Shown: positions 1 through 61,146 of the stretch, one piece after another | Layout of the letters: the number at the start of each line of letters is the position of its first letter | Position numbering within the stretch: the stretch's first letter is position 1 | Virus record (IMG/VR): IMGVR_UViG_3300029812_000326 | Span: 44,871 to 108,870 of that record | Origin: a virus | Length of the DNA stretch: 64,000 nucleotides | Reading direction: 5' to 3' (one strand) | Program-made: the position numbers and the translations under genes | Notes under the pieces: generated by a model | What the model was told of the DNA's origin: nothing | Databases searched by the model: none | What the model saw: only the letters and a program-made list of their open reading frames with translations

Positions 1-1
1 T

Positions 2-3000
2 GAATATAATAATGAAAATAGAGAAATAGCTATACGTCTTCAAACTGCCAGTTGTCCTGAAAAATATGGGCATCCAATGAAAATTTTTGCATATCCATAT
101 AAAGGAATGTTAACTCCAATAGAAGGATTAAGATCGATTACTTGGGTTGATGCCGTTCTTCGTAAAGATCTTGCAAAACGCGGCAGAATGTCAGTCATGT
201 TAGGCCAAATTCAAAGATTGACTAGGAATTTCCAAACCATTCATTCGAAATTAACTCCATCCCAAACATTTCAATTTTTTGAAACAGTTAAAATTTTTGT
301 GAATAAAATAAATTCAATGGGTGGTATTAAATTAGATTGGCAAGTCAATAAAGGTAAACTTCAATTTATAGACGAAATAACGGGAAAAGAATGGCAAAAA
401 TTGGATCTCGGAAAAATTGAAAAAAATTGGTTACAATTTTCCGAAGGCGAATGGGTTAGATTTATGAAAGAATATTCCCAAAAAATCCGACATATGATGA
501 TTTCATTTGGGATTAAATATTCCAGACATGATCCTCGCTTGCCTTATTGGACTCAAGGTCAACTTGAATCGATGCTATCAACTGAATGGGGTAGACGATA
601 TCCTAAAAAACTAGCATTTGCTGATTTGTCCCGAGCTGAACAAAATGTATTTCGGGAAAAAATAGAAGTAGAAATGCACGAACAATTATCAAAAAGTGAA
701 TTCTCCAAATTTTTTACAAAAGCAGAATTAGAACGTTGGAAATCCGGAACTTTAATGGAAGGCCATCTTTCTTTGATTCAACTATTCGGCGGTTCTTGGG
801 GAATATTAGAAGTTACTCCGGCATCTAGAGCATATGAAGCCGGAGAATTATATGCTAAAGGTGCCGATATAAAAATCCCCAGCTTGGATGAATTAGTTGT
901 GTCCGGACCAATAGCTCAAAGAATTGCTCGCACATTCACTGGCGAACAGCGCGATATGATGAATTATATGTCAAACATCCAGCCCCTTTTGAGATATGGA
1001 ATCTTGCCTGAATCTCATTATCCAATTATAAAAGCCTCAGAAATAAATCTTGATCCTATGACAACTCATTTAGGATTTAAAGAGGAAATTGGAATCATAG
1101 AAGATAAATCTTTCAGAATTAAATGCGTTGAAACTGGGGAAATTTTTAATTCTTTGGAAGAAGTTCCAGACCGCTATTTGAAGCAATATACATTAAGACC
1201 CATGGGTATGAATGCATATATGCACCCAAAAACCTTGGAATCGATGTATGGACAACAACCAACTATAGTTGAATTCAATATAGGGAAAAAGAAGGTTTAC
1301 CTTCCCAGACCGGCATTATCATTTATCAGAGGTGCGCCCGCCAGAGTCACGAAAAGCGGAGATCCTTATACCATCATTGGAAAAGAGATTCAAACATTTA
1401 AAAATCTATTGATTGCGGCATCAGATTACGAGAAAATTAAAGGGGACGAAGCAAAAGCCGCATTTGAAAGAAAGTTCTTTTCACGGGCTGAAGACTATAA
1501 AAATATGATATTAACGGATAAAAATGCATATATAAAAATGACCAAACCAACGATTCCTGGAGTTCAAGGAAAGATTTCCATGGCATTTGCCCCCGGAATG
1601 GCTAAAGCGTTGGGATTGCCGCAAGATATGTTTAGCCATATAACTACAGGATTTGGGATACAGGGAGTATCTGTAAAGTCGATGGGCGAAGAATATTTTA
1701 ATAAAGCCATGGATGTCCATCAAATAAAGGAAGGATCGAATGTTGGAAAATATAGAGGCGCCACAGGAATGGTTTATCCGAATAAAATGGCGTTTAGGGA
1801 AGCTCTTATTGAAGGTGAAGAATTACTTGCGGGAACTATTATCAGAACCCCCGCAGAAAACCGATTCGCATTTTTTGATACATTGATCACTGTTAAAAAA
1901 GATCAAGCAGCTGGAATGCGCCTCCAACTTAGAGAAGCATTAGCAACCCACTGTGATTATGATGGGGATATAGGGCGCCTAGTATTTGCCGAGTTTTCTC
2001 CCCAGGAGCAGGAGCAAGCTTTGAAAGATCTCATAAATAAGCAACACGTTGATAGAAAAGCACATGCAACATTAGCTGAAAGGATCAAAAAGCTTCAAGC
2101 AAATGTGCTTGAATATGAAACCGGCAAAGACGTCGCAACCAAAAAACAGATTGTCAAGGAAATTGAACAAATTCAAGAACTTGAAAAAACAATGAACGTT
2201 AATGTCTATGGTCAAGGTATTTGGGTAAGGGAAGCTAAACCAAAAGCGATTCCAAAAGAAATTAAATTAGGAATTGGCGATGAAATGAGATTTCGAAAAA
2301 TGAATTTGCATCAGTTTATGAAAGAATTGCCATCTATTGATCTTCCCGAAAGATTGATCAAATTACCGGGTGAAGAATTGGAACAACATCTTTCCAATAT
2401 GCTTACGAAAACTGCTACAGCCTACTCGTATAGAAAAGCAATGACCATGAGATCAGCAACTAAGCTATTTGGTGGAAAATTAACTGAACAATATTTGGAC
2501 TTATATAATGAATTGGCCGGAAAAGTTACTGCATTCAAAAAAGTTCCATATGAAAAAGCTGAGCAAATAACTAGAGCTCTATTGGAACCAGAAGCTGCAG
2601 AATCGAAAAAAATTATGGGAGAAGTATTAAATAGGGATGCGGAAGAACTTTGGCCACAATTTAAAGAATGGCATTCTGCACTAAATCGTGCCATGATGAG
2701 AAAGGAAGTTAATGAATTAATCAGTTCTGGAATGAAACGCGCCCCTATTACGGGTGGACAGTTGGCATTATGGGGTCCAAGTGCAGAAATCCCTGCTGCA
2801 GGAAAGACTCGCGCAATTTTAGACTTTTGGGGTAAAGAAAAGTTTCTTGATAGCTTTAAACGTCAAGGGAAAAAAGGCGGCATTGCAATTGCGTTGGCCG
2901 CGCTTGTCGCTCCGATTTTCCTGTCGCACGATAATATATATGATAAAAAAGGATATCCAATAATTCCAACGAATTTCAACGTTGCTCAGCCAATATTCCC

Positions 3001-3160
3001 AGCCCCTATTCACATAATACCAAACGATCCACCATCGCATCCTATAAGAACATTTAAACCTCAGATTATTGATCCTTTGCTTATTAATTTTGGTTCTGAC
3101 AACAACTTAACAACAAGAAGGAATAGTGGCCAATATCCAAATGAATTGAGAAATTACTAG
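2..3160 (+). CDS. Putative two-barrel (DxDGD) RNA polymerase, 5' end outside the window
   Basis: The reading frame is open from the first complete codon, so at least 1052 residues are present and the start lies upstream. The key signal is THCDYDGD (DYDGD at nt 1955-1969), preceded 37 codons earlier by RTPAENR (from nt 1844). In cellular RNA polymerase beta' the metal-binding NADFDGD loop follows the RAPTLHR motif at nearly the same distance. YonO-like and crAss-like phage polymerases and eukaryotic RNA-dependent polymerases carry a similar DxDGD loop. Further upstream, GKISMAFAPGMAKALGLP resembles the barrel strand leading to the active site. Near the C-terminus (nt 2877-2927) is a hydrophobic segment, then a Pro-rich tail. 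Its place before the tail genes would suit a polymerase packaged in the virion and injected with DNA. The role is inferred from one motif pair and context; another large virion protein with a chance DYDGD remains possible. Confidence 0.5.
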   Translation, partial: EYNNENREIAIRLQTASCPEKYGHPMKIFAYPYKGMLTPIEGLRSITWVDAVLRKDLAKRGRMSVMLGQIQRLTRNFQTIHSKLTPSQTFQFFETVKIFVNKINSMGGIKLDWQVNKGKLQFIDEITGKEWQKLDLGKIEKNWLQFSEGEWVRFMKEYSQKIRHMMISFGIKYSRHDPRLPYWTQGQLESMLSTEWGRRYPKKLAFADLSRAEQNVFREKIEVEMHEQLSKSEFSKFFTKAELERWKSGTLMEGHLSLIQLFGGSWGILEVTPASRAYEAGELYAKGADIKIPSLDELVVSGPIAQRIARTFTGEQRDMMNYMSNIQPLLRYGILPESHYPIIKASEINLDPMTTHLGFKEEIGIIEDKSFRIKCVETGEIFNSLEEVPDRYLKQYTLRPMGMNAYMHPKTLESMYGQQPTIVEFNIGKKKVYLPRPALSFIRGAPARVTKSGDPYTIIGKEIQTFKNLLIAASDYEKIKGDEAKAAFERKFFSRAEDYKNMILTDKNAYIKMTKPTIPGVQGKISMAFAPGMAKALGLPQDMFSHITTGFGIQGVSVKSMGEEYFNKAMDVHQIKEGSNVGKYRGATGMVYPNKMAFREALIEGEELLAGTIIRTPAENRFAFFDTLITVKKDQAAGMRLQLREALATHCDYDGDIGRLVFAEFSPQEQEQALKDLINKQHVDRKAHATLAERIKKLQANVLEYETGKDVATKKQIVKEIEQIQELEKTMNVNVYGQGIWVREAKPKAIPKEIKLGIGDEMRFRKMNLHQFMKELPSIDLPERLIKLPGEELEQHLSNMLTKTATAYSYRKAMTMRSATKLFGGKLTEQYLDLYNELAGKVTAFKKVPYEKAEQITRALLEPEAAESKKIMGEVLNRDAEELWPQFKEWHSALNRAMMRKEVNELISSGMKRAPITGGQLALWGPSAEIPAAGKTRAILDFWGKEKFLDSFKRQGKKGGIAIALAALVAPIFLSHDNIYDKKGYPIIPTNFNVAQPIFPAPIHIIPNDPPSHPIRTFKPQIIDPLLINFGSDNNLTTRRNSGQYPNELRNY

Positions 3161-3431: not shown

Positions 3432-3593
3432 ATGCCATATAAAGATCCAAAAAAACGAAAAGAATATCAGTAGGAATATTTACAAAAGAATAAAGAAAAA
3501 TTAAAAATTCGCAGGCAGAAATATTATCAAGAAAATAAAGAAAAAATTAAAAAATATCTTCAAGAACATAAGGAAAGTGTTAAAAAACTTAAA
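3432..3593 (+). pseudogene. N-terminal part of HNH endonuclease, interrupted by an in-frame TAG
   Basis: An ATG with a good AAGGA site opens a frame MPYKDPKKRKEYQ that meets TAG at 3471-3473. It then continues in the same frame as EYLQKNKEKLKIRRQKYYQ and runs into the intact HNH domain. The Lys- and Tyr-rich helix (YQxEYxQKNKEK) is typical of the N-terminus of phage HNH endonucleases, so the stop breaks what was one protein of about 167 residues. A sense codon such as AGG or AAG turned to TAG would explain it. Suppression of the amber codon is an alternative. Confidence 0.6.
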
Positions 3594-3935
3594 TTGAAAT
3601 ATATACGAAATCATCCGCATCGTGTTTGGGCAACGCATACCTTTAATGGTCATAAACACCGAAGATTTATAATTAATATTTCTATCGACGAACTTGAAGA
3701 AATTGCTAAAAATATAACTCATTGCCCTATATGTAATAGTGAATTCAAATGGAAACAAGAAAAACAATGTGATAATACACCATCTTTGGATCGGATTAAT
3801 AATGGAAATAATATTGATAAAAATTCAGTTTGGATCATATGCAGTAAATGTAATCGAACAAAATCGAATAGGACTCTTAAAGAATTTATAAATTACTGTG
3901 AATTGGTTTCGAAAAAGGACTTTAATATCGAATAA
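3594..3935 (+). CDS. HNH homing endonuclease (SIDELEEIA family), C-terminal domain
   Basis: This 113-residue frame holds the whole nuclease core: ITHCPICNSEF, then SLDRINNG (the D-R-I/N core that replaces the canonical DHI), then VWIICSKCNRTKSNR, giving two CxxC zinc knuckles. It belongs to the same family as the genes at 54224 and 55848, which share ISIDELE and TLDRINN. HNH enzymes of this kind nick or cut DNA at a target site and spread their own gene. Translation of this part alone would start at the ATG at 3594, which has no clear Shine-Dalgarno site, so activity is doubtful given the upstream amber codon. The next gene starts two bases after its stop. Confidence 0.75.
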   Translation: MKYIRNHPHRVWATHTFNGHKHRRFIINISIDELEEIAKNITHCPICNSEFKWKQEKQCDNTPSLDRINNGNNIDKNSVWIICSKCNRTKSNRTLKEFINYCELVSKKDFNIE

Positions 3936-3937
3936 TT

Positions 3938-6900
3938 ATGAAAGTATATAATCCAATAGAGTGGAATATTGGTGTGCATGGTGGCTATGATAACCCCGAT
4001 GATGCTAGAAATATAGTGCAGCCTCTTTTTGATTTATTGAATTATTTAAATCGATGGTGTCAAGACCAGGGAATGAATCATATTATTATTACTTCTGGAA
4101 GACGGGAGGCAAAGTATAATGCTAGCATTGGAGGAAGCCCAACAAGCTATCATTTGACTGGGCATGCGGCAGATATTGCCATAATCGGGCGCTATAATAG
4201 ATGGGAACAAACTATGATTTACAATTGGTTGCACACTGTATTTGCTGATCAACTTGCTCAAGTTTTATATCATGGTACTGGAGGTAATTATCATTTACAT
4301 ATAGGAATTCGGAAAGGATCTGAAGGCATGGGGCCACTTTTGGAAACTGAAAGCAAAAGTGAAGGAATTATTGAAGAAAAAAAGCCCGGAACCAATTCTT
4401 GCAACATTATGAATGATAATATTATGGGATATAATGAAACAATTGCGACTCAGATACCGCTTGATATTTATAAAACGAGCTATGAATTACTTCAGGATGT
4501 TACTGAAGAAGAAAAAATTGATCCGTTGATTGCATTAGCTCAAAAACCAGGATCATTTAAATTTGGCGCATGTTGGCTAACCGTGCCTCCAACATCAATT
4601 GCTTTTACAGAACAAAACAATATTGTTGGAATTCCAACCCTTCGTACTAAAGGCAATGTATATTGGAGAACTGGCATCAATTCAATAAACATGGACCTTG
4701 AATTTTTGTTTCCAGGATTGATTCAAATTAATGACGAATTGAGACATATAATTGCTCAAATTAAAAGATGCCCATTTTTACCTTTCGAAAATTATTATTT
4801 GCATTCATTGATATTTCCGGAATTAAAATCTGCTAAGCCTCAACCTGATATCCCATATGAATTTACCACGGAAGAAAAAACGCAACATGAAAAACAAACT
4901 GGCACTCAGGATAGACTTCAACAGCAGCAATGGCGATTGAAAAACAAAAAGATTATGGATATAGTCAAATCCGGAGATGAAAAAAGCCTGAAAGAATTTA
5001 TTGAAAAAGGTAAAAAATATGGATATTTTATTCAAGACGCGGAATCTCAAGAAGATAGACGCGAAAGAACTGAACAGCTTGAAAAGCTTTATGAATGGAT
5101 GGGAAAATATAGACATATTGATGTGGATGATACTAGTGGATTAAGCTACCGAGATCAACAAATGGTAGCGGCAATACGATCAATATCGATTACATCTGTG
5201 CCCGGATTTCCCAAAACTCTTCAAATGAATTGTTCCTGTGATATTTTTAATTATTTTCCTTATACTTCTGCGTTTAGTTTCATAGAAAATGAAACAAAAA
5301 ACGAAGTTCCGGTTTTCAATATTTCCAAAAGTGCACTGTTTGGAAAATATTATAAAGGAATGCTCACTAGAAATAATGCCCAAGAATTTAAAGATGCATT
5401 TGAATCCACAACAAAATTGGAAGCCATTGGATCTGATGAACGTATGGATTATTTGCATCTGAGATATATTTATTCTAAAGAATCGAAAAACCGAGCAATA
5501 TTAGCTCAAAGAGCTATATTGGAATATATACAAGCGATCAAAGATTTTGGAGAAAGCTATGAAGCAGCGCCAGCTGCAGAATTATATCAAAATCTTTTCA
5601 TATTTCTTACGCATCCCAATTTTGGAGGTTGGCAAAATCTATTTGATGCGCCTGGAAACGTAATAGATGCCATAAAAGAATTGGGAAAAGATGCAGTAAT
5701 CGCAGGAAAAAGTATTATTGCTGTGGTGAAATTTTATCAAGATTCTTTTGGGGAATATTTACTTGGCATAAATGCAAATAATGAAATATATGTCATAGGT
5801 AATAGGAAAGGGCGGGAATATTTCCTTCCACTTAAAGATGCAATTAAAAATCCGGAATATCGGACAAGATTATTATTTTATATTAAAGATTATTCAGTTA
5901 AAATCCGATCGTTACAATATAATCAGCGGGATTTGAAACTTGGAGATCAGAATTCTCAAATAGTTGGAATTTCAGCATCAATGGAAACAAAACTTGTGCC
6001 AATGAATATATTAGCATTTACGAAACCAACTTTCCAACATCTTGGAAATTCAGAATGGGTTGTTACATTAACGGTTGAAACATCAGATCCAAATTTAATA
6101 AGAGATTTTCGCATGATGACTGAACGGCTCAATCAAACCGCCTTATCACAAATTGCAGTGTTACCGGAAATTCGGGATTATGCGGATCTTTCTGCGCAAA
6201 TTGTTGAAGGACCATTTTTTAAACTTTTAGGAATAGAAAATATAATTCCTGGTAATTTCAGATATTCTACCGTGGAAGGAAAACCCGGCATATTCCATAT
6301 TCAAATCGATTTTGTACAATCCGATTTAGAATTGAAAACATATGAAGCACTTCAAGCTCCTGCATATTTTCCGTCTGATTTTATCAAATCATTCATTAAA
6401 TTAATCCCAGTGTTATTGCTTGAAAATATTTCTTCTAAACTTGAAGCTGATTGGAATAATTATCACATTATTCATAAATATAAAATTGGAATGCAGCTTT
6501 TGCATCAAACATTAGAAAATTATCCGAAATGGTCAAAATTTCTATTTTATTTATGTAAACCAATTCCAAAATCTTTATGTTCAGAATCAATTCCAGTCTA
6601 TAAATTTATTCTTAATGACATAAGTTCCGAATTAATTGCAAAAAAGCAACAAAAAGATTTATTTAAATGGGATTGGAAAGATATCCTTATGTACGCCGGT
6701 GCATATTTTACTGCAAGATTGGGGGCGGGACCGGGTCCAGTTGGTGATGTAAGAGCCCATTCAGGTGCGATGGCAGCAAAATTTACATTTACGAATTTAC
6801 TTAACACTACAATATTTGCGGCATATAAAGGTGCCGTTGGACGACAATTGAAAGCAACGTTGAATGAAGCCATAAATAGGGAAAATGTTCCGTCCGAATT

Positions 6901-9900
6901 AAAGATTGATTCAACAGAAAATGGACGGAAACTTCTTGAACTTATAAGAGAAAATCAAAAATATCTCCATATCAGAAATTCGACGTATCCTGATTTGGAA
7001 CTTCCAATTATCGCAGATTCTCCTGATTTTTGGTTTTTCCGAGAACCATTATATAATGATAACATTCGAGAATTTGCCGATGTAATAGTCAGTGGGCATG
7101 AAGATATAGTTCTTAAATTGGCGAAACTTAATTCTATGAATAAACAAGGAAAAGCAACTACCCAATTGGCTAAATTAGATCAAATTGCTAAAGAAGCCAA
7201 AATTAAAGAAGTTTTGGTTTCAGAAGAACTCAATAAAAATTTATTGAGCTATTTAAGAGATGCAAATGAAGATTTACAATTCAATATAGAAAGATCTAAA
7301 GATCTTAAAGAAAATGCACATCTTATGATGGAAACAAAGCGAAATAAATCTCAAGAATATTCGGGGCGCGCAGATGAATCGACATTAAGAAGCAGATTAT
7401 CAAGGATTAAACATGATATGGAATATTATAACGATTCGTTGAAAATTATAAATTTAATAGAATTAAAAAACATGGATTTCCAAACTACGGGCGATCTGTT
7501 GGATATTGCATTAGTTTTAGCAAAAAATTGGGGAATTTGTACTCCGAGGGATGCGCAACTTGAAAAACAAATGCTTCAAGATGCTATGAATCTTGATGAA
7601 AATAAAACTTTAAGATTGGGTCGGGCATTTCCAACTTTTAAATTATATTTTATAGAAAAAGATAAAGAAGAATGGTTATTGTTTGATGATTTTTATGGAT
7701 ATGGCGCAGTAAAAGAAATTCAAATAAGGAAAATTAGAAAATCTCCGATTCATACTGCGGTAGTTACATTATCAAATATCACTAATGTACTTCAGGATAT
7801 TCATGCTCCAAAGAATGAAAATATTTCTAAATCAGAAACGGCAGAAGAGCAACCAAATATTGACACTATGCTTCTTCAAGAAGGTTGTGAAATAATGATT
7901 AAGATGGGCTATGAAAATGATTCCAATAAATTGAAAGTTGTATTTCAAGGATCGATTGTAAGTATACAGCCCGGACCAGAATTGCAATTTATTGCACAAG
8001 GGTGGGGAGCAGAGCTTGGCCAGCCAATTCAAGATTTTAGTGTTGGAAAATGGAGCACAATTCGGGATTTCGGAGATATAGCGACCGCAATTTTAAATAA
8101 AGTTTCTGGATTGAGGCATTTTGGAACAACATATAATTTAGCAGAAATGTTTGATGATCTACCAAATATTCAATACAGATCTGATCGTCGAGAAACATAT
8201 GTTGGTAGATTGAAAAATTGGTCGCTTCAAGGATTGGGGCTAAATCCACTGCTTGATCATAGAGACGACAACGTTTGGTTGCCATATCATAGTCCTCCCA
8301 GCATTTGGTCGCTAGCCCATATTATAGAAGGAAAAGGATTTGCATTTGATTGGAGAGTATATAATAAAACCGCGTGGGATGCACTTGATGAGGTATTGAA
8401 ATATATGCCGGGATATATTATGAAGATTTTGCCTTATAATGAAGATAATTTGCAGTCTGCTAGATGCACATTATATATAGGCCCAAGGGATGGATATTAT
8501 ATGGCTACGGATGATTCAGAAGTTGTCAACAGGACATCGGAACATGATAAATATCAAGAAAGAAGAAATAGATGGTACATGCGCGTTAAAGGCATAAAAG
8601 CACCAACGAAACAAGAATTGATAATTAAACTTAGAAATTTTAACATAGATTATGATAGCAATACAAGTATAATTTATAAAGAATTTATAAATCAAAACAT
8701 TATTTGTCAAAATGATGAATGCAGCTTAATGAAAGCAAGTCCATTTAATCCAACAGTAGTTCAATGGAGTGGACAATTATATACCATGGAAATTCTATTT
8801 GGAGGAAACGAAATATGTCATAAAATTAATAAAGAACATTGGAAAAGACAATATTTTAATGTTTTAAATGGTTCAGGTATGACACGGGCCATCATGATAT
8901 ATGATGTTTATGACAAACTTCATTTCAAAGATTTTGAAAGAGTCTACGGTAAAGCTAGCCTCTTTGAACGAGCAACTGAAGGAGTAGAAAGATTTACTTA
9001 TGGGAAAGACGATAATCCTAAAAGGCTGGCCGGAAAACGAGGATGGAAACGAGCATGTAAAACTCATTTTATTGATAGTTATCATCACATAATTGAAAAT
9101 AATATGAAAGCTTCGCGCGAAAATATGTATAATAAGGTTCACTTAATCTATCCAAAAGGCGAACCTCAAATGGCTGCAAATGAAACGCAACTTAAAACTG
9201 GAGATTTATCTGAATTTGAAATGCTTGCAGATGACAATATAAAACCTGATATGATAAGAACGCATAAATTATTTTTTACCAATATTGACGTTGATCGAAC
9301 AAGAAATTTTATAGATTCAATTGGAAATGTTCTTAAAGGTCTTGGGCAAACGATTGGACTTAATGATCGTGGGAATTTTCCCGATATTCCACCATACGCA
9401 ATAGTAGCGAATACGATACTCGCTGAAGATTTGAAAGATATGTATGATGGAGAAATTATTATTTTGCTCGATCCAAATATTGATATTCATGATGTAGTCT
9501 ATATATACGATGATGTAAATGAAATTTATGGGCCAGTTGGAGTAAAAGAAATTTATCATTATTTCTCTATGGCACATGGAGCTTATACAGTAATTGTGCC
9601 CGATCTTATGTCATATCCCAGTAATCTAGAACAAACTGTTGAATTGGGTTATGCTTCAGCATTATATGCAGCATTAATTAAAATAGTCCTTGGTGGCATT
9701 TTAATTGGTGGAGGCGGCGCGCTTTTGGCTGGGAATTTGCTTGGACCATGGACTGGAGTAGGAGTCGCGGGATTTAGTTTGGCATTTACGTATAAACTTG
9801 CTTCTTCTATAGGTTCTGGTGGAATAAATAAACTCATGGGAAGAGAGGGTTCTGAATTCGTGCCCATATGGAGAAAGGGTGCCCCATTTCTTGCTGGAAT

Positions 9901-10072
9901 GGATGGATATAGAAAAGATGATCTTATAGTTCATTATATGGATAAAATTACTCGAATAAGTGGAACGTTTAAACAACTGAGTGCAAGCCTAATTGGATTA
10001 AGAGATAAGCCAGAAGGTACACAAATGGCATTACCAATTCTTGGATATAAAAACGAAAATTTAATTTTTTAA
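3938..10072 (+). CDS. Giant tail protein with N-terminal M15 peptidase domain
   Basis: This 2044-residue protein begins with a D-Ala-D-Ala carboxypeptidase-like (M15) domain. SYHLTGHAADI at residues 70-80 supplies zinc ligands His72 and Asp79, and YHLHIGI at 118-124 supplies the second His pair. M15 domains cleave peptidoglycan stem peptides, so this is likely the tail-tip lysin that opens the wall during DNA entry. The remainder is long alpha/beta sequence of unknown fold with a charged coiled-coil-like stretch near residues 1060-1180. Near the C-terminus (about nt 9650-9800) are Gly-rich hydrophobic segments (LGGILIGGGGALLAG) that could cross or disrupt a membrane. Position before the baseplate genes supports a hub or tail-tip role. 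No tape-measure-like repeats were seen. The start ATG lies two bases after the previous stop and has no Shine-Dalgarno site. Confidence 0.8.
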   Translation: MKVYNPIEWNIGVHGGYDNPDDARNIVQPLFDLLNYLNRWCQDQGMNHIIITSGRREAKYNASIGGSPTSYHLTGHAADIAIIGRYNRWEQTMIYNWLHTVFADQLAQVLYHGTGGNYHLHIGIRKGSEGMGPLLETESKSEGIIEEKKPGTNSCNIMNDNIMGYNETIATQIPLDIYKTSYELLQDVTEEEKIDPLIALAQKPGSFKFGACWLTVPPTSIAFTEQNNIVGIPTLRTKGNVYWRTGINSINMDLEFLFPGLIQINDELRHIIAQIKRCPFLPFENYYLHSLIFPELKSAKPQPDIPYEFTTEEKTQHEKQTGTQDRLQQQQWRLKNKKIMDIVKSGDEKSLKEFIEKGKKYGYFIQDAESQEDRRERTEQLEKLYEWMGKYRHIDVDDTSGLSYRDQQMVAAIRSISITSVPGFPKTLQMNCSCDIFNYFPYTSAFSFIENETKNEVPVFNISKSALFGKYYKGMLTRNNAQEFKDAFESTTKLEAIGSDERMDYLHLRYIYSKESKNRAILAQRAILEYIQAIKDFGESYEAAPAAELYQNLFIFLTHPNFGGWQNLFDAPGNVIDAIKELGKDAVIAGKSIIAVVKFYQDSFGEYLLGINANNEIYVIGNRKGREYFLPLKDAIKNPEYRTRLLFYIKDYSVKIRSLQYNQRDLKLGDQNSQIVGISASMETKLVPMNILAFTKPTFQHLGNSEWVVTLTVETSDPNLIRDFRMMTERLNQTALSQIAVLPEIRDYADLSAQIVEGPFFKLLGIENIIPGNFRYSTVEGKPGIFHIQIDFVQSDLELKTYEALQAPAYFPSDFIKSFIKLIPVLLLENISSKLEADWNNYHIIHKYKIGMQLLHQTLENYPKWSKFLFYLCKPIPKSLCSESIPVYKFILNDISSELIAKKQQKDLFKWDWKDILMYAGAYFTARLGAGPGPVGDVRAHSGAMAAKFTFTNLLNTTIFAAYKGAVGRQLKATLNEAINRENVPSELKIDSTENGRKLLELIRENQKYLHIRNSTYPDLELPIIADSPDFWFFREPLYNDNIREFADVIVSGHEDIVLKLAKLNSMNKQGKATTQLAKLDQIAKEAKIKEVLVSEELNKNLLSYLRDANEDLQFNIERSKDLKENAHLMMETKRNKSQEYSGRADESTLRSRLSRIKHDMEYYNDSLKIINLIELKNMDFQTTGDLLDIALVLAKNWGICTPRDAQLEKQMLQDAMNLDENKTLRLGRAFPTFKLYFIEKDKEEWLLFDDFYGYGAVKEIQIRKIRKSPIHTAVVTLSNITNVLQDIHAPKNENISKSETAEEQPNIDTMLLQEGCEIMIKMGYENDSNKLKVVFQGSIVSIQPGPELQFIAQGWGAELGQPIQDFSVGKWSTIRDFGDIATAILNKVSGLRHFGTTYNLAEMFDDLPNIQYRSDRRETYVGRLKNWSLQGLGLNPLLDHRDDNVWLPYHSPPSIWSLAHIIEGKGFAFDWRVYNKTAWDALDEVLKYMPGYIMKILPYNEDNLQSARCTLYIGPRDGYYMATDDSEVVNRTSEHDKYQERRNRWYMRVKGIKAPTKQELIIKLRNFNIDYDSNTSIIYKEFINQNIICQNDECSLMKASPFNPTVVQWSGQLYTMEILFGGNEICHKINKEHWKRQYFNVLNGSGMTRAIMIYDVYDKLHFKDFERVYGKASLFERATEGVERFTYGKDDNPKRLAGKRGWKRACKTHFIDSYHHIIENNMKASRENMYNKVHLIYPKGEPQMAANETQLKTGDLSEFEMLADDNIKPDMIRTHKLFFTNIDVDRTRNFIDSIGNVLKGLGQTIGLNDRGNFPDIPPYAIVANTILAEDLKDMYDGEIIILLDPNIDIHDVVYIYDDVNEIYGPVGVKEIYHYFSMAHGAYTVIVPDLMSYPSNLEQTVELGYASALYAALIKIVLGGILIGGGGALLAGNLLGPWTGVGVAGFSLAFTYKLASSIGSGGINKLMGREGSEFVPIWRKGAPFLAGMDGYRKDDLIVHYMDKITRISGTFKQLSASLIGLRDKPEGTQMALPILGYKNENLIF

Positions 10073-44509: not shown

Positions 44510-45577
44510 TCAATCCGATTCATAATACGAGCTCCGCGGGGATTTGACCAATAATTCATTAAAAAATTTGATGAATTCAACGGCAATTTTTTCTGGGGAA
44601 TATTTTTTTGCATATTGAATCATTTTTTGTTGCACGGTTTGAGATTTTTCTTTATCATGAAAAAGTTCAATTAATAATTGATGTAAATTATTTACATTTT
44701 GATATTTAATTACTTCATCGGAAAATAAATGGAAAAAATCCGATCCATCTGGTACCAATATTGGACATCCCGCTCCAATTATTTGAAATGCTGTAGATGA
44801 AACAACGCCATAATCTTTTTTTATGAATTTATGCAATACAATAGCATCTGAAGCGGATATGTAATCATCAAATCTTCGATGAGACAATATTTCTTGTCGA
44901 ATAATCATCCAGGATGACATATTTGATTTTTCAAAAAATTTCTTATCAGGTGAAGCAAGAATAAGCAAAATTGATTCATCTTTCAAATTATCGGATAAAT
45001 ATCGAAGATATAGTTCATATCCTCTTTGACAAAATGAAAGAATTATCCGTTTATCTTGAGGCAAATTTAATTTTTTCCTGGCATCTTGTTTATTTCTTTT
45101 TCTTATTGGAAAACAAGGAAAAGGAATTAATTGAGCATTTGAATAAATTTTCTTTAGAAATTCCTGACGTTCAGTAAAATATATTACGCCATCCCAAAGG
45201 AATTGATAAAAATTAGGATTATTTGGCAGTTGATTTTCATGAACAATTTGAATTATAATTTTGCTACGTCTATAAATATTGGGAATAATTTTTATTAATT
45301 TTTCCATTGGAAATATCATAATATCTTGAATTATGAAAACATCGAATTCTTGAGATAAAATGGGTGCTGGATCAAGAAAATTGGTTTGTTGGGTGCCTAT
45401 GCAACGGATTACATAATTTTCATCTTTGTTAGTAATATGGGTACCATGAAAATCATTTTTAATAAAGGTAAAGATGGTAAGTTCATGCCCCATTTCAATC
45501 CAGCTTTTTCCAATTGATTCTGCATGAATAGCAACTCCGCTATCTGTGTTCCAAGCGGACAGCATGCCTATTTTCAT
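44510..45577 (-). CDS. Glycosyltransferase (GT4-like)
   Basis: The 355-residue product has a two-Rossmann GT-B layout. The N-terminus, MKIGMLSAWNTDSGVAIHAES, has the same nucleotide-sugar enzyme start as the second half of the 45880 product (VGVMTTWNERCGIARYS). The C-terminal donor site reads SDAIVLHKFIKKDYGVVSSTAFQIIGAGCPILVP, in which the usual E-x7-E has been altered. The protein probably moves a sugar onto DNA bases, a virion protein or a host glycan. It ends the minus-strand operon. Confidence 0.75.
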   Translation of the reverse strand: MKIGMLSAWNTDSGVAIHAESIGKSWIEMGHELTIFTFIKNDFHGTHITNKDENYVIRCIGTQQTNFLDPAPILSQEFDVFIIQDIMIFPMEKLIKIIPNIYRRSKIIIQIVHENQLPNNPNFYQFLWDGVIYFTERQEFLKKIYSNAQLIPFPCFPIRKRNKQDARKKLNLPQDKRIILSFCQRGYELYLRYLSDNLKDESILLILASPDKKFFEKSNMSSWMIIRQEILSHRRFDDYISASDAIVLHKFIKKDYGVVSSTAFQIIGAGCPILVPDGSDFFHLFSDEVIKYQNVNNLHQLLIELFHDKEKSQTVQQKMIQYAKKYSPEKIAVEFIKFFNELLVKSPRSSYYESD

Positions 45578-45589
45578 CTGTTTCGCCTT

Positions 45590-45910
45590 TTACTTTTGAT
45601 GTAATATTAATCGCCGTTTTAACCAAGATATTACGGCGCTTCTGAAGCTTCTCAATATCTTTTTCTCATTAGTATGTTTTTTATCAGATTCAATAAGAAC
45701 TTTTTTCATAATATTTTCAAGATCTAAACTGATATCTCGGGACGAACAGTAATCAAGCATTACAGAAATATCAATGCATTCTTCTTCAAGTTGCCTTATG
45801 AATAATGTAGTATCGGCGCTTGTATCTGGGAGCATTCCGCCAAGGAGTCTGACATATTTATGAATGTATTCGTTATATTTTAAGATTGGCTCGCCCGCTT
45901 CTTTACACAT
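45590..45910 (-). CDS. Small helical protein of unknown function
   Basis: The 106-residue product is mostly charged helix (TLFIRQLEEECIDISVMLDY, LENIMKKVLIESDKKHTNEK, AVISWLKRRLI). It lies between the two glycosyltransferase genes and its start overlaps the end of the longer one by 31 bases. This suggests coupled expression and perhaps an accessory role. No family was recognised. Confidence 0.7.
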   Translation of the reverse strand: MCKEAGEPILKYNEYIHKYVRLLGGMLPDTSADTTLFIRQLEEECIDISVMLDYCSSRDISLDLENIMKKVLIESDKKHTNEKKILRSFRSAVISWLKRRLILHQK

Positions 45911-48219
45911 TCTTCGTGTGCTTTTTTATAGATCTCTGAATATTTCCGTCCTAAAATTTTCCAAGATCTAGTTTTTTGATATTCTTTAACTTTATCCAAT
46001 TCTTTATTGTAAATTTGTTGGTTTTCGTATAATTTTGTTATCTCTTCTGCCAAAGCTATAGAATTAAAATTACCATGAGGGAAATTCTTAACATCATAAA
46101 ATGCTGGTGAACTGCTTGTTATTATTGGAGTTCCTGCGCCCAGACATGTGCATGCTGCGCCAGAAACTCCTTGACATTTCATAATGGCATACATAAATAA
46201 ACCAATATGAGATCTGGCACATAATTCTGATACTTCTTGATCAGATAGGAAATTTTCGATAAGTTTTACATTTGTATTCTTTGACATTGATCTTATATGT
46301 TCCAAATATTTTTGTTGCGTTCCCGATTTATCTCCTGGATGAACTGAAGTTTGAAGAATAATTTCATGTGGGAATTTTAAATATTTATCGCAATCAACGA
46401 CCAATTCAAATCCTTTTGATGGATGAGCAAATCCTGAGCTAATGATTGTGAACTTGGAAAATCTTTCTTTGTCAGATTTATATGAATCGCAACCATGTGG
46501 GATCACCATCACCTTCTTTCTAAATGAAGGCCATTGTTCTAATATATCGGCAAAGAATTGATTATGCACAATTGGAATAGAGTGTTTAGACCATTCTATT
46601 ATCTCTTCAAAATATTGGATATTTTGGCTGTCAGTTGAAGTTGGACATGTGTGATGAGTAATAAAAATCGGTATTCCCATATCGTGCATTGCAGATATAA
46701 ATGCTCTAAATCTAGGTTTATTCGCCCAATATAATGCCCATTCATTCTGGATGTGAATTACATTGATTCCTTCTTTTCGAATTATTTCATACGTATTTAT
46801 AAGTTCGCTGGGATTTTTGGACCAACATGGAATGGCTTTAAGTGTACTCTGTTCTTTTGGATCCATTGTATCAGCCGCTAATATGATAGGATTAGGTTCG
46901 ACGTGTTGATATGAATTTCTACTATAGCGTGCGATTCCACATCGCTCATTCCATGTTGTCATCACTCCGACCTTAAGTTCTTCAGGAACTTTGTATTTGG
47001 GGAATTTTTTCTTTTCAAGAATCATAGGAGAAACAAAGGCAGTATTTTTCGAAGTATCAATTTGTTCTAAAAATTCATCCCAACGTTCATATTGTTTTTC
47101 CCAAGTATGATTTTTGGCGAATTCAATTCCACTCTTTGAATACTGGTTTCTCAATTTTTCATTTTTGTATAATTTATATAATTTTTTCGCAGCATATTGG
47201 ACATCGGGTATTTGCATCAATTGTCCTGTTATTATCTCGGGATACTTCGCTTTAACCTTGACAGGTTCACCAAATTGATATGCATATTCTTTAAACGAAT
47301 TAGCATTTGTAAATACCATTGGCACACCACATGCTGCACTTTCTAAAGCAGTGATACCGAATCCTTCTCGTGAAGACAGCAAAATTTGAACGTCGGCAGC
47401 ATTATAGATTAAATTTACCTGTTCGGGCGTAATACCATGACCAACTTTAAGATTTGATAATACAGCTTTATCGTTTAAATCATATCGATTAACAAATTCT
47501 TTCAAATCATATCCGCGAGCTTCGTGGAAATTACAATGAAAATATATTTTTGAGTTTGGAATATTTGCCAATTTGAATGCTTCCATTGCTCCACATGGGT
47601 TTTTTCTCATCCCATTTCGACTGATAAATAACACAACAAATGCATTTTCGTCACCAACCAATTGTTTTTTGAGTTGTTTCTTCGTTATTTCGCCCAATGG
47701 CTTAAATATATCTGGTTCATATCCCGGATAGATTACGGTTTTCACCAGATCATGACCACAAAGTTTTCGAATTTCGTCTTTACAGAATTTTGTTTGACCA
47801 ACAACGTGATTGAATTCTTCCATTGTTCGAATCCAATCAATAGTTTCGAATGGGGTTCGCATTATTTTGGGAGATCCTTCACTATCTATTGGACTATACC
47901 ATATTGATTGAAATGAATTTCTCCCTTTGAATTTTGAAATATAATAAACCATCCAAAGATCTCCAGTTGTCCACACAATATCAGGTCTGAATTCTTCAAT
48001 CACTTTTGGAAACAGTTTAAGACCCCATTTATCTCTTTGATCGGTGGCATTATAAACCTTAAATGGCATTTTTTCCATGTCTCCTCGGGCCCACCAACCC
48101 ATGTATTGAATCTCATGTCCTTGTTCATGCCAATGAGTAGCTAGATGTCGTCCAATGGTACCATATCCACTGGTGAGCTGTGGTGCGTCTGTTATCATTA
48201 AAATTTTATGTTTTTTCAT
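45880..48219 (-). CDS. Fused double glycosyltransferase
   Basis: The 779-residue protein joins two GT-B enzymes. The first half starts ILMITDAPQLTSGYGTIGRH and has the donor-site motif SREGFGITALESAACGVP near residue 285, with both glutamates of the E-x7-E of GT4 retained. The second half starts near residue 415 (LKVGVMTTWNERCGIARYSR) and ends with CQGVSGAACTCLGAGTPIIT, where the motif is degenerate. VIPHGCDS and SGFAHPSKGFELVV are further GT4 hallmarks. One half may be catalytic and the other regulatory, or each may add a different sugar. GGGG precedes the ATG. Confidence 0.85.
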   Translation of the reverse strand: MKKHKILMITDAPQLTSGYGTIGRHLATHWHEQGHEIQYMGWWARGDMEKMPFKVYNATDQRDKWGLKLFPKVIEEFRPDIVWTTGDLWMVYYISKFKGRNSFQSIWYSPIDSEGSPKIMRTPFETIDWIRTMEEFNHVVGQTKFCKDEIRKLCGHDLVKTVIYPGYEPDIFKPLGEITKKQLKKQLVGDENAFVVLFISRNGMRKNPCGAMEAFKLANIPNSKIYFHCNFHEARGYDLKEFVNRYDLNDKAVLSNLKVGHGITPEQVNLIYNAADVQILLSSREGFGITALESAACGVPMVFTNANSFKEYAYQFGEPVKVKAKYPEIITGQLMQIPDVQYAAKKLYKLYKNEKLRNQYSKSGIEFAKNHTWEKQYERWDEFLEQIDTSKNTAFVSPMILEKKKFPKYKVPEELKVGVMTTWNERCGIARYSRNSYQHVEPNPIILAADTMDPKEQSTLKAIPCWSKNPSELINTYEIIRKEGINVIHIQNEWALYWANKPRFRAFISAMHDMGIPIFITHHTCPTSTDSQNIQYFEEIIEWSKHSIPIVHNQFFADILEQWPSFRKKVMVIPHGCDSYKSDKERFSKFTIISSGFAHPSKGFELVVDCDKYLKFPHEIILQTSVHPGDKSGTQQKYLEHIRSMSKNTNVKLIENFLSDQEVSELCARSHIGLFMYAIMKCQGVSGAACTCLGAGTPIITSSSPAFYDVKNFPHGNFNSIALAEEITKLYENQQIYNKELDKVKEYQKTRSWKILGRKYSEIYKKAHEECVKKRASQS

Positions 48220-56756: not shown

Positions 56757-57782
56757 TCATCTTGGAAATTTTATTTCAGCACTTAGCTTCAATTTTCGTA
56801 GGGCATATTTGACTTGCTTGACCACATTTTTTGGCGAGATATTCAATTCAGCAGCAAGTTTATCTACCCCCACCGGAGGACCATCTAAACCAATTAGATT
56901 TGATAGTATATATTGATGATTTTTTCTCAAATTTTGCATTTTTCGTTTTATTATAGCTTTTAAAATCAAAATATATTCATTGCCAGTATTTCCATGATCA
57001 ATCATATCAAAAACCGGAACCATTTCACCTTCCTCATTTTCTATTTCAGAAATAAATGTTGGATGCTTGCAAGGATTCAGAATATTTCTGCATTCTTTTT
57101 GTTCTTTCCTATTCAGTTCCCGCTCATTTATACTATGTTCTTTATACTTATTAAATGGAATCTCAATAGTCACATCCCTTCTGGTATATTTTTGTAATTC
57201 ATGTCTTACCCACCAAGTGGCAAATGTGCCAAAATGAAAGCCCATAGCACTGGAATATTTTCCGCTTGCTTTAATCATTGCGAATATCATTGTCTGATAT
57301 ATATCTTCAAATGAAGTGTTTCCCACATATTGATAACAGATCGGAAGTAACTTTTTAACATTAGATTCTATAAGTTTATCCCTAGCATTGTAATATGATT
57401 TCAAAATTGATTTAACTTTTAGACTTTTGGATTCATTTTCTGCAATTTTTGATATATAAACATAATCAAACTCAATCTTGTTTGCCAATTGCAGACTTGG
57501 ATTATTAACATATCTCTTGATTAATCCAATTAACTCCTTAGTTTGCATAGTCTTTGCAGTAAATCCATCCAGTAATGTATACCTGGATTTCGGATGAATT
57601 TTTTTAATATCCTCTATAAGATTATCAATGAAATATCTTTTATCATAAATTCGTTTCAAAATTTTATTCCTGCAGTCTTCCATTGTTATTGCTAAGGTCA
57701 TCTCCTCTTCTAATGTTAAACTGGAAGATGCAAATTTTTCTATTTGTTTTTTGATATATTCTTCTATATGCATTTTATCCAC
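56757..57782 (-). CDS. Sigma-70 family RNA polymerase sigma factor
   Basis: The 341-residue protein would direct host RNA polymerase to phage promoters. Region 2 is clear at residues 132-203: NARDKLIESNVKKLLPICYQ, SFEDIYQTMIFAMIKASGKY and FHFGTFATWWVRHELQKYTR, matching the core-binding and -10 melting helices. Region 4 is at 275-335 (GVDKLAAELNISPKNVVKQV then KYALRKLKL). The N-terminal 130 residues are helical and not recognised. This is a natural candidate for reading the TTGAACTATAACA elements. AGGTGG precedes the ATG. Confidence 0.9.
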   Translation of the reverse strand: MDKMHIEEYIKKQIEKFASSSLTLEEEMTLAITMEDCRNKILKRIYDKRYFIDNLIEDIKKIHPKSRYTLLDGFTAKTMQTKELIGLIKRYVNNPSLQLANKIEFDYVYISKIAENESKSLKVKSILKSYYNARDKLIESNVKKLLPICYQYVGNTSFEDIYQTMIFAMIKASGKYSSAMGFHFGTFATWWVRHELQKYTRRDVTIEIPFNKYKEHSINERELNRKEQKECRNILNPCKHPTFISEIENEEGEMVPVFDMIDHGNTGNEYILILKAIIKRKMQNLRKNHQYILSNLIGLDGPPVGVDKLAAELNISPKNVVKQVKYALRKLKLSAEIKFPR

Positions 57783-57949
57783 CTGGAAATTGTAACGCCC
57801 ATTCCTGATTCTAGGTAAACTCGAACTCCATTTATTTCGACTATCATTGAGGATGAATTTCTTTCCTTAGTTTCCTGTACATACTGATCCATCATCTCTT
57901 CATATTGCTCATCTGTTGGTAAAGCTCCTTCTACAAAATTTTGATCCAT
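57764..57949 (-). CDS. Small protein of unknown function
   Basis: The 61-residue product has an acidic helix (TDEQYEEMMDQYVQETKERN) and a short beta hairpin (SMIVEINGVRVYLESGMGVT). It overlaps the DNA polymerase stop by one base and the sigma-factor start by 19, so the three are probably co-translated. No family was recognised. Confidence 0.65.
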   Translation of the reverse strand: MDQNFVEGALPTDEQYEEMMDQYVQETKERNSSSMIVEINGVRVYLESGMGVTISRWIKCI

Positions 57950-60900
57950 TATGACCCTCCAAATAAATCATTTTGATGAATTTCTTCTAATCCAAATAGT
58001 TTTAATGCTTTATATATTTCTTGAACGTAATATTTATGATCGATTTTAGCTTTATCAGTTACCAATGCGGATATGTTATAATTTTTTCCTTTCGTAACCA
58101 CATATTCGATCTGCATTCCCAAATAGGGTTCAATCTCAAGAGCTTTCCTGGCTTGCTCTGCCAATCTTCTTTGTAGGCAATTTTCATTTATATAATCAAA
58201 AATTGGCTTATTGATTCTTGTTGTCATAATAAAATAATTTAATGGATATTTTTCCAAATCCATATATTTTGATACTGCTTCCCAAATTATATCTTTGCCT
58301 TCTTCCTCCAAAATCATATCTGCAACCATGGTCAAGATCTTATCATATAACAAGCAATGTCGCGATGATTTGAAGGCAACGCCATGAAATATAATTCTAC
58401 CCTCTTTAAGTTCTCTATATAAATAATTTTTAGATAAATGAAAATATCCCGAACCATAAACTTCTCGGTCTAAATTCACTATAAGATCCTTCACAGAAGT
58501 AATTGGCCGAATCAAATTGTAGATAAACTTTTCTGCGTCTTTAACATTGATATCGGAATCAATGTACACGCCATCAGTATTGTGTAATACTATTCCACCG
58601 ATTCCGCATACAAATGTACCATCTTCTGTTGAAATATCATAAACTTCAGTTGATTCGGAAGTCAATTTTTTGATTTTTTTCACCAAATGTTGATTGACAG
58701 AAACATTGTGAGATCGAGACATTTTCTTTCTTAAGGTTAGAATATTAATTTTATCATCTCTTATTATAACACCACTTTCCTGACCTGCAGAATTTAGGAT
58801 GTATTGAATCCCAGCGAATAGTGTATGATGAATAGAATCTATTGATTCGATATGCTGTTTCTTTGTAATATTAATATATCCATCTCCATCCCACAATCCT
58901 TTCAAAAAAGCTTTTTTAATCTTTTCGGTACCATTTAAAACTGGCAAAGGAACCTTTTTCCAATTTCCTTTTGTGTAGCAAAGATGTTTCAATTCAGTAG
59001 CCGCAAACTTATGATCCTTCTCTAATTTGTAACAATTGGATGATTTCATAGTATCATATAAATGCATGTTAACCATGTACCGAGATTCGAATATTTTATT
59101 TATTCGATTCAAATATTCTAAGTTTTGGTTCGAAAATACGACTTGATATCTTGGGCGATTATCTATCGTTACAGATCCTTCTGCTAATAGAAATCCCAGA
59201 AACCACGCAAAATCTTCAGATATATCAGTATCGAGTTCAGATTTCGGCAACGCCTTAATTTCAATTTCATCTTGAGGAAATAAATTCTTCGGTGTTACTT
59301 CTTGTCCATTTCTATGAAAAAGCGAATGATCTTCCGTTGCTTCAACGTAACCATTGGTTGTATTAATCCTATATATCTGCTTTTGGACTTTATGTCTTTT
59401 CACATAGTTTATTCCCTTCCAGCCATTCCGAGTAAAAACTTCAATATTTTTTGGAATATTATAATATCTGTGATATCCTTTTGGAATCAGTTCTTCAATT
59501 GGAACGAAATCTACGTATTTCTGATCCCGTCTGATACATATTGGCGTTTGCCCTGTGACACTATCCACTTCAATAACTTTATCACGATATTTATCAACCA
59601 ATTGCTTGATAATCCATCGGCAAATCCCGACAATTGCAATAGCTGTGCTCAAATCTCCATATTCCGTACTACCAAGTCCCTGAATCCCGTAGATACTGTT
59701 TATTTGAACCTTGAGCGTATCAGTAATGGCTTTTATCTTGTTTGCCTCATCCAAAGAAGCATCTTTGATTTTTGCTTTCAATTTAAATCTGTTATCCATC
59801 AGTAATCGGAGCTCATCTGAAATTAATCCTGGCTTGGATTGATCAACCCGAATGATTAAATTTTTCTGAAGATTTTTATCTGGGATTTGTAGCCATAATT
59901 GATTATTTTTCAATTTGAATTTAAAATCATCTTCATTAGTAAATTTCATCATCTTAACTAATTTGGTTGTTTCCGGGCTGAGTCCAAAATTCACCATTGT
60001 AGATGGATAAAATCCTGAGAAATCTAATTTATAAACTTTACTTATGAATCCATGTTTCAAAATATCTACATATGCGGCCTGGTACTTACCTTCCAATTCA
60101 TGATATCTTTTGAAATTGGAATCCAATGGTATGTATCCAGCGCTTCTTAGTTTTCTCGCGGACATTATTTTTGGCACAAATGAAGGATAGTCATTTATAA
60201 TAAATTCAAGGGGAATTCCCATAATCTCTGCAGTACTTAAATGTAAAGGCATATAGATTTTATATAATTCCCATAGAAGATTCACATCCGATTTCTGATA
60301 TTCTCTAAGTTTTTCTGTTCCAATCAATTGTTCGGTATTGGTAAGTTCGTCATTAGTCAATTCTTCATGGGGGATTTTAAACCATTCAGCTACCGTTTTC
60401 AGTTTTTTATTTTTTATGCCCAGCATTGATTGATCTCTATCAGTATCAGTATTGAAAATATCATAATGTACATGACCTGGAATCCTAGATGTTTCTTTAT
60501 CTTCCCAATTCGATGGAATTCTTGAAAAATCTGACAAATTAATACCACAATATTGCGATCTAGTAATTAGAAATGGAATGTCAAATCTTCTGCCATTATA
60601 AGTTATCAAGATATCTGGATTCTTTTCCCTAAAATATTCTAAAAATTCTATTATGATCCTCTCATCAGGATATGGGCGCTTGAGATCTTTCAATGAAATC
60701 TCAAATACAACCTCCGGTTCATCCATATATTTTGCGCCAATACATATAATAGGATTATTATTTGGATTCGGAAAAATTCCGGAACCGTTGGTAAGAACTT
60801 CAATATCAAATGCCATAACATCTGGCATCCCATTCTCATACTTTCTAAAAAAATCTGGATGATCAACAAACATCGCCTCGAGAAACCTAAGATAACTCAC

Positions 60901-61146
60901 ATCATGTCCCAAATTCTTTAAACTGATAGCTTTTTCCGCTGCATCCGCATCACTCCTGAACTCGTATACATATACATTTTTCTCGGTTTTTGAACCCAGA
61001 TCAATAAGTTTCAAGTTCTTGGCCGCAGATTTTGATTTTTTCGTTGTTAAAATATATGGCATCATAGGTGCAGGAATCTTTGTAAGACGTTTCTTATGCA
61101 TTATTAAAAGTTGATGGGTATAATATGCGGTTAAAGGTACCTTCAT
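57949..61146 (-). CDS. polB: Family B DNA polymerase containing an intein
   Basis: The 1065-residue precursor holds a 737-residue replicative polymerase and a 328-residue intein. The 3'-5' exonuclease motifs are MAFDIEV (ExoI, near residue 110), ITYNGRRFDIPFL (ExoII) and YQKSDVNLLWELY (ExoIII). Polymerase motif A is LDFSGFYPSTM near residue 372, motif B is KVQINSIYGIQG near residue 480. Motif C (usually DTD) is split by the intein between VIEVD and TDGVYID. Removal of the intein is thus required for activity. AAAGGAA precedes the ATG. It is the core of the replication module. Confidence 0.93.
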   Translation of the reverse strand: MKVPLTAYYTHQLLIMHKKRLTKIPAPMMPYILTTKKSKSAAKNLKLIDLGSKTEKNVYVYEFRSDADAAEKAISLKNLGHDVSYLRFLEAMFVDHPDFFRKYENGMPDVMAFDIEVLTNGSGIFPNPNNNPIICIGAKYMDEPEVVFEISLKDLKRPYPDERIIIEFLEYFREKNPDILITYNGRRFDIPFLITRSQYCGINLSDFSRIPSNWEDKETSRIPGHVHYDIFNTDTDRDQSMLGIKNKKLKTVAEWFKIPHEELTNDELTNTEQLIGTEKLREYQKSDVNLLWELYKIYMPLHLSTAEIMGIPLEFIINDYPSFVPKIMSARKLRSAGYIPLDSNFKRYHELEGKYQAAYVDILKHGFISKVYKLDFSGFYPSTMVNFGLSPETTKLVKMMKFTNEDDFKFKLKNNQLWLQIPDKNLQKNLIIRVDQSKPGLISDELRLLMDNRFKLKAKIKDASLDEANKIKAITDTLKVQINSIYGIQGLGSTEYGDLSTAIAIVGICRWIIKQLVDKYRDKVIEVDSVTGQTPICIRRDQKYVDFVPIEELIPKGYHRYYNIPKNIEVFTRNGWKGINYVKRHKVQKQIYRINTTNGYVEATEDHSLFHRNGQEVTPKNLFPQDEIEIKALPKSELDTDISEDFAWFLGFLLAEGSVTIDNRPRYQVVFSNQNLEYLNRINKIFESRYMVNMHLYDTMKSSNCYKLEKDHKFAATELKHLCYTKGNWKKVPLPVLNGTEKIKKAFLKGLWDGDGYINITKKQHIESIDSIHHTLFAGIQYILNSAGQESGVIIRDDKINILTLRKKMSRSHNVSVNQHLVKKIKKLTSESTEVYDISTEDGTFVCGIGGIVLHNTDGVYIDSDINVKDAEKFIYNLIRPITSVKDLIVNLDREVYGSGYFHLSKNYLYRELKEGRIIFHGVAFKSSRHCLLYDKILTMVADMILEEEGKDIIWEAVSKYMDLEKYPLNYFIMTTRINKPIFDYINENCLQRRLAEQARKALEIEPYLGMQIEYVVTKGKNYNISALVTDKAKIDHKYYVQEIYKALKLFGLEEIHQNDLFGGS
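58579..59562 (-). mobile_element. Intein with LAGLIDADG endonuclease in polB motif C
   Basis: The element spans residues 529-856 of the precursor. It starts with Ser (SVTGQTPICIRR), which replaces the usual Cys1, has the block B-like TNGYVEATEDHSLF (Thr and His of the TxxH motif), and ends with GIVLHN followed by Thr as +1 residue, the normal His-Asn splice end. Two endonuclease helices are present: WFLGFLLAEGS and AFLKGLWDGDGY, each with an acidic residue, so homing activity is likely kept. The site splits the catalytic Asp-Thr-Asp. Confidence 0.9.

Follow-up and report, generated by a model that had tools for sequence, protein, structure and literature searches.

The closest described system is that of the Thermus phage P23-45, for which the accessible part of the published account (PMC10770324) describes gp96, a tape measure protein of 5,002 aa with a virion RNA polymerase fused at its N-terminus, proposes that this polymerase transcribes the pre-early genes during DNA translocation, and calls the fusion of tape measure and polymerase a previously unsuspected association. 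In Bacillus phage 0305phi8-36, according to the accessible part of its description (PMC2147016), the gene before the hub gene, orf146, is the tape measure, assigned from a correlation to tail length, and homologues of orf146 diverge beyond recognition; orf146 is described there as a tape measure only, and orf99, an RNAi-type RNA polymerase, is a separate gene. The RNA polymerase of the crAss-like phage phi14:2 (2,180 aa, motif DFDID) is a single-chain DxDxD enzyme encoded among structural genes and an MS-detected structural protein, and the polymerases of AR9 and phiKZ are split over several polypeptides.

We analysed a window of 64 kb, the right-hand part of the 108,870-bp virus record IMGVR_UViG_3300029812_000326, at the left edge of which lies the end of a gene for a giant protein of 2015 aa. 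This protein is probably a giant tail protein of the tape-measure slot that would carry a C-terminal, single-chain DPBB RNA polymerase borne in the virion and a DEDDh exonuclease in mid-chain. Like P23-45 gp96, it would join a DxDGD polymerase of the two-barrel type to a giant tail protein of the tape-measure slot, and in both systems some relatives are without the domain and some phages have a second, separate polymerase. The two differ in that the polymerase is N-terminal in gp96 (DFDGD at 779) and C-terminal in the 2,015-aa protein, an exonuclease domain is present in the same chain here but not in gp96, and the very long tail of P23-45 is non-contractile whereas that of the window phage has a sheath. 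The window protein had no match to gp96 (residues 1-1300) or gp64. The sequence-only reading had named crAss-like enzymes among the known single-chain members of this class; by sequence the protein is not crAss-like, as the comparison of the window family with the phi14:2 RNAP gave an hhalign E-value of 0.33, the same as a decoy, and its sister families likewise had no detectable relation to it. A duplication origin of the kind proposed for P23-45 is therefore not supported, given that no detectable relation was found to gp96 or gp64, to the phi14:2 RNAP or to the RNAi-type polymerase discussed below. The lack of detectable relation, the C-terminal position of the polymerase and the sheath together lead us to class this protein as a new variant among the virion two-barrel RNA polymerases and not as a member of the gp96 family. 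Unlike the AR9 and phiKZ enzymes, the polymerase here would be a single chain joined to a tail protein. With 0305phi8-36 the window phage shares the gene slot before the hub and, by hub and sheath homology, the same broad lineage. The open-licence literature as available to us contains no published account of this polymerase in this lineage, although the supplementary surveys of PMC10770324 may list it.

The giant protein and its gene neighbourhood

The window's first frame is open at its left end, and the expectation that it continues upstream was confirmed by recovery of the rest of the gene: an intact 2015-aa ORF (G000:C1:41983-48030) begins 2,888 bp before the window's left edge, and the part inside the window is residues 964-2015. 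The features to which we refer below are as follows, in window coordinates ("KLEB family" denotes the family of gp034 of Bacillus phage KLEB27-3).

2..3160, plus strand: C-terminal 1052 aa of the giant tail-cluster protein (open frame, upstream recovery)
1646..2329, plus strand: region homologous to KLEB27-3 gp034, with IQGV..GKY..G.VY, R-x-P, DYDGD and G..D..R.K (hhalign)
1844..1864, plus strand: RTPAENR, residues 1578-1584, corresponding to RAPTLHR and, in the KLEB family, to NRYPTI
1955..1969, plus strand: DYDGD metal-binding loop, residues 1615-1619, kept in relatives and syntenic genes
2270..2299, plus strand: G-I-G-D-E-M-R-F-R-K, aligned with the conserved IG..DN.R of the KLEB family
2876..2932, plus strand: hydrophobic segment, residues 1922-1940, hydropathy 1.63
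3938..10072, plus strand: baseplate hub / tail lysin, 2044 aa, with an N-terminal M15 peptidase (Pfam, PHROG)

The initial observations on this protein held at the level of the letters: RTPAENR and DYDGD are 37 residues apart (R1578 to D1615), and the reported hydrophobic C-terminal segment is present, beyond the polymerase domain. DYDGD is the sole DxDGD among ORFs of at least 80 aa in the whole record. Five sister genes have a similar hydrophobic segment 91-125 aa from the C-terminus, and the sisters also conserve G..(D)N..R and SQ..IS.KK downstream of the DxDxD motif; by inference from the alignment, G-I-G-D-E-M-R-F-R-K is possibly the bridge-helix region. The second barrel and the catalytic lysines were not located. 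The middle of the 2015-aa protein matches exonucleases (Pfam Rv2179c-like, 4.6e-5; PHROG exonuclease, 7.7e-6), and D507, E509, D609, H713 and D718, invariant in three relatives, are the candidate DEDDh residues, their roles assigned by motif.

Two relatives of the protein in IMG/VR, L005 (88% identical) and L006 (84%), conserve the metal-binding motif (DYDGD and DFDGD, respectively) together with the Arg and Pro of R-x-P (RTPAENR, RIPPESK). In L006 the stretch around both motifs is less conserved than the remainder of the protein, and the whole-gene dN/dS of about 0.07 indicates purifying selection.

Terminase, portal, capsid and sheath genes precede the gene of the giant protein on the left, from which we take the phage to be contractile-tailed, and these are followed by a gene for a 3615-aa protein (L004:1133-11980, equivalent to G000:C1:31133-41980) with several inteins and a match to a Cas4/PD-(D/E)XK-like nuclease. 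By eye there are about four inteins in this protein (LAGLIDADG_3 in five stretches, intein splicing in two), and their content varies among close relatives, since L005 has apparently one and the L006 part none. In L006 the two giant tail genes are separated by a ribonucleotide-reductase-like gene (752 aa, L006:4841-7099), which is absent from that place in the window phage and in L005. On the right, as had been read from the sequence, the polymerase-motif gene adjoins a lysin, the 2044-aa hub protein (Pfam M15_3, 6.9e-10; endolysin PHROG, 8.6e-59). A free-standing HNH-like ORF lies between the two (3474-3935, plus strand), at a site where L005 and L006 have just about 220 bp. The phage sigma factor was also found, as a sigma-70 region 2 protein at 56757-57782 on the minus strand. 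Elsewhere in the window are a family B DNA polymerase that contains an intein and a homing endonuclease domain (57949-61146, minus strand) and glycosyltransferase genes (Glycos_transf_1, Glyco_trans_1_2; 44510-48219, minus strand) at the point where the coding strand switches.

The gene slot before the hub

Searched directly, the window protein matched no phage record, PDB sequence, Pfam RNA polymerase or genome contig. The family was found through its neighbour: the hub protein matched proteins of Bacillus phage KLEB27-3, Moorella phage MTATph1 and Acinetobacter phage ME3 (those of KLEB27-3 and ME3 being baseplate/hub proteins), and the annotation of ME3 rests on homology to Bacillus phage 0305phi8-36. 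In KLEB27-3 the gene directly before the hub, gp034 (2434 aa), reads NRYPTIN...ADYDGD and is annotated as 'structural protein'. The hub alignment led to 40 IMG/VR loci, and among the genes that immediately precede the hub we counted 32 distinct ones. Members of the same family are also encoded in plasmid records of Cytobacillus oceanisediminis and Bacillus velezensis, the Cytobacillus member being named 'hypothetical protein' and lying directly upstream of a large 'nuclease'-annotated protein in the hub position; a scan of genome contigs with the KLEB-family profile found nothing.

The polymerase-bearing gene occupies the hub-upstream slot in every lineage found, and the gene order matches orf145 - orf146 (tape measure) - orf147 (hub) of 0305phi8-36 as given in the accessible part of its description. 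Lying between the sheath and tube genes and the hub, the gene of the 2015-aa protein occupies the tape-measure slot; by that slot the protein is a putative tape measure, with the qualification that two giant proteins precede the hub. Three of the loci (L044, L045 and L047) have a separate RNAi-type polymerase (ADHDGD) elsewhere in the genome, and in the window phage no second DxDGD protein was seen in a record that is possibly incomplete. Such separate RNAi-type (PF05183) RNA polymerases with ADHDGD, seen in three sister phages (loci L071, L072 and L073), resemble what the available text says of 0305phi8-36 orf99, and comparison of the RNAi-type polymerase of the sister phages with the present polymerase family gave no detectable relation.

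Packaging in the virion is suggested by gene position, by precedent and by the label of KLEB27-3 gp034. It is unlikely, to our reading, that the polymerase domain is present but not packaged, either as an enzyme made late or as a non-virion enzyme encoded in the tail operon. That account gains from the fact that the tape-measure role derives from the literature assignment of the 0305phi8-36 slot by tail length, as far as the available text goes, but it leaves unexplained why every lineage with the domain has it as part of a giant protein encoded immediately ahead of the hub and why the KLEB27-3 counterpart is annotated as structural; moreover, in L044, L045 and L047 the RNAi-type enzyme means that a non-virion role is already filled.

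The polymerase motif recurs in this slot far beyond chance expectation, with DxDxD in 30 of the 32 distinct genes (8.1 expected from shuffles) and DxDGD in 21 (0.78 expected), as compared with 11 and 1, respectively, in the hubs themselves, which served as a control. For the few genes with more than one DxDxD, the motif at the common position was counted; its distance to the C-terminus is 376-561 residues in all motif-bearing genes except L046, which has a broken frame, and 400 residues in L014 and L015, relatives within the window family. In pairwise comparison most of these genes do not recognise one another, the window family matching its two close relatives only. Divergence extends to the motifs, with DHDQD, DQDKD and DHDKD among the DxDxD variants and R-x-P, invariant in A9, absent in L018, L022 and L026. 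L020 and L021 have no DxDxD polymerase motif in the slot, nor does the MTATph1 counterpart, whose remaining pieces hold the exonuclease and the C-terminal segment; judged by these genes, the polymerase domain is optional in the lineage. An IS21-like transposase pair is inserted in this MTATph1 gene (L010:10836-14275).

Such variants, the loss of R-x-P and the lineages that show no domain are what would be expected if the DxDxD barrel were a dead or repurposed relic with a structural or DNA-binding task in the tail only. We give this account a slightly lower probability still than that of an unpackaged enzyme: all three aspartates are kept at 30 of 32 loci whose sequences are otherwise mostly beyond pairwise recognition, and in the window family DYDGD is intact under strong purifying selection.

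Profile and fold links to RNA polymerase

Comparison of family profiles ties these divergent genes together and, through the KLEB family, to RNA polymerase beta'. DxDxD falls in register in the best local alignment of 20 of 136 family-profile pairs, against 0.19 expected (maximum of 2 in 2000 placements), a count that overstates the case somewhat because the shared motif itself attracts such alignments. The window family and the KLEB family align (hhalign) over 207 collinear columns with a score of 42.7 (E 5.6e-4), as compared with 27.0 for the best of 60 column shuffles, and masking of DYDGD left this diagonal in first place (score 29.2). The order of elements along this alignment is the IQGV block, GKY..G.VY, R-x-P, DYDGD and G..D..R.K. 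The KLEB family in turn matches Pfam RNA_pol_Rpb1_2 (PF00623) at 3e-6 to 4e-4, which is below the curated cut-off but is the sole match in each of four whole records in a six-frame search, and it matches beta'-like proteins of other viral contigs in profile comparison (5e-6 to 7e-6). The beta'-like pieces on three other uncultured viral contigs (L064, L065 and L066) read NRNPSLLQGS...ADFDGD and probably belong to multisubunit RNA polymerases. A search of PDB sequences with the KLEB-family profile gave a chance match only, and the window family compared directly with beta' gave no match, its link running through the KLEB family only.

Structure prediction, which had been proposed as a check, answered in part. 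The AlphaFold2 model of the window half, built with 12 sequences, has a pLDDT of 36 and is uninformative, and a fold search with that poor model matched nothing. The model of the sister protein L038 (pLDDT 45.5 overall, mostly 55-85 around the motif) did retrieve RNA polymerases, the top match being the AR9 non-virion RNAP core (E 1e-4) and nearly all of the first 50 being RNA polymerases. TM-scores are low and the model can be trusted near the motif only, so that the L038 match supports an active-site barrel and not a whole enzyme.

The Pfam, profile-comparison and predicted-fold tests identify the KLEB family as an RNA polymerase, and the region at 1646..2329, being homologous to KLEB27-3 gp034, would thereby be homologous to the active-site barrel of RNA polymerase beta'. 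The central proposal of the sequence-only reading, a DxDGD-class polymerase beside the tail genes, is in this way supported by some 30 divergent loci, the KLEB profile match and the sister-family fold search. That the motif arose by chance in a tail protein unrelated to polymerases, a very improbable account for which the uninformative model of the window protein and its direct comparison with beta' leave some room, was set aside on the syntenic conservation (30 of 32), the in-register profile pairs across many families and a window-KLEB match that exceeds the shuffles and extends well beyond the motif.

Proposed mechanism and significance

On our best reading, a tail protein with a virion polymerase would work like P23-45 gp96, though the two are not detectably related. 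The giant protein would sit in or at the tail and be delivered into the cell envelope by tail contraction, the hydrophobic segment would anchor it there, and the polymerase would transcribe the first phage genes during DNA entry, before or without the host RNA polymerase. Presence in the virion, ejection, polymerase activity and a role in early gene expression are each inferred.

On balance we favour the view that a virion RNA polymerase fused C-terminally to the protein of the tape-measure slot is an ancestral and largely unrecognised feature of the 0305phi8-36-like large contractile-tailed phages, in which case transcription coupled to injection by a tail-borne polymerase arose separately from the P23-45 fusion and is far commoner. 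Public annotation names these genes 'hypothetical' or 'structural' only. The proposal is directly testable in an isolated phage, Bacillus phage KLEB27-3, and in the phage-like plasmids of Cytobacillus and Bacillus. Within the open-licence literature as available to us, one tape-measure-fused virion polymerase, that of P23-45, had previously been described. The present findings suggest that about 30 very different related phages would deliver a polymerase along with their DNA and so begin transcription of their own genes, and the same design, found at the opposite end of the protein with no detectable homology at some 30 divergent loci, suggests that entry-coupled transcription may be a general strategy.
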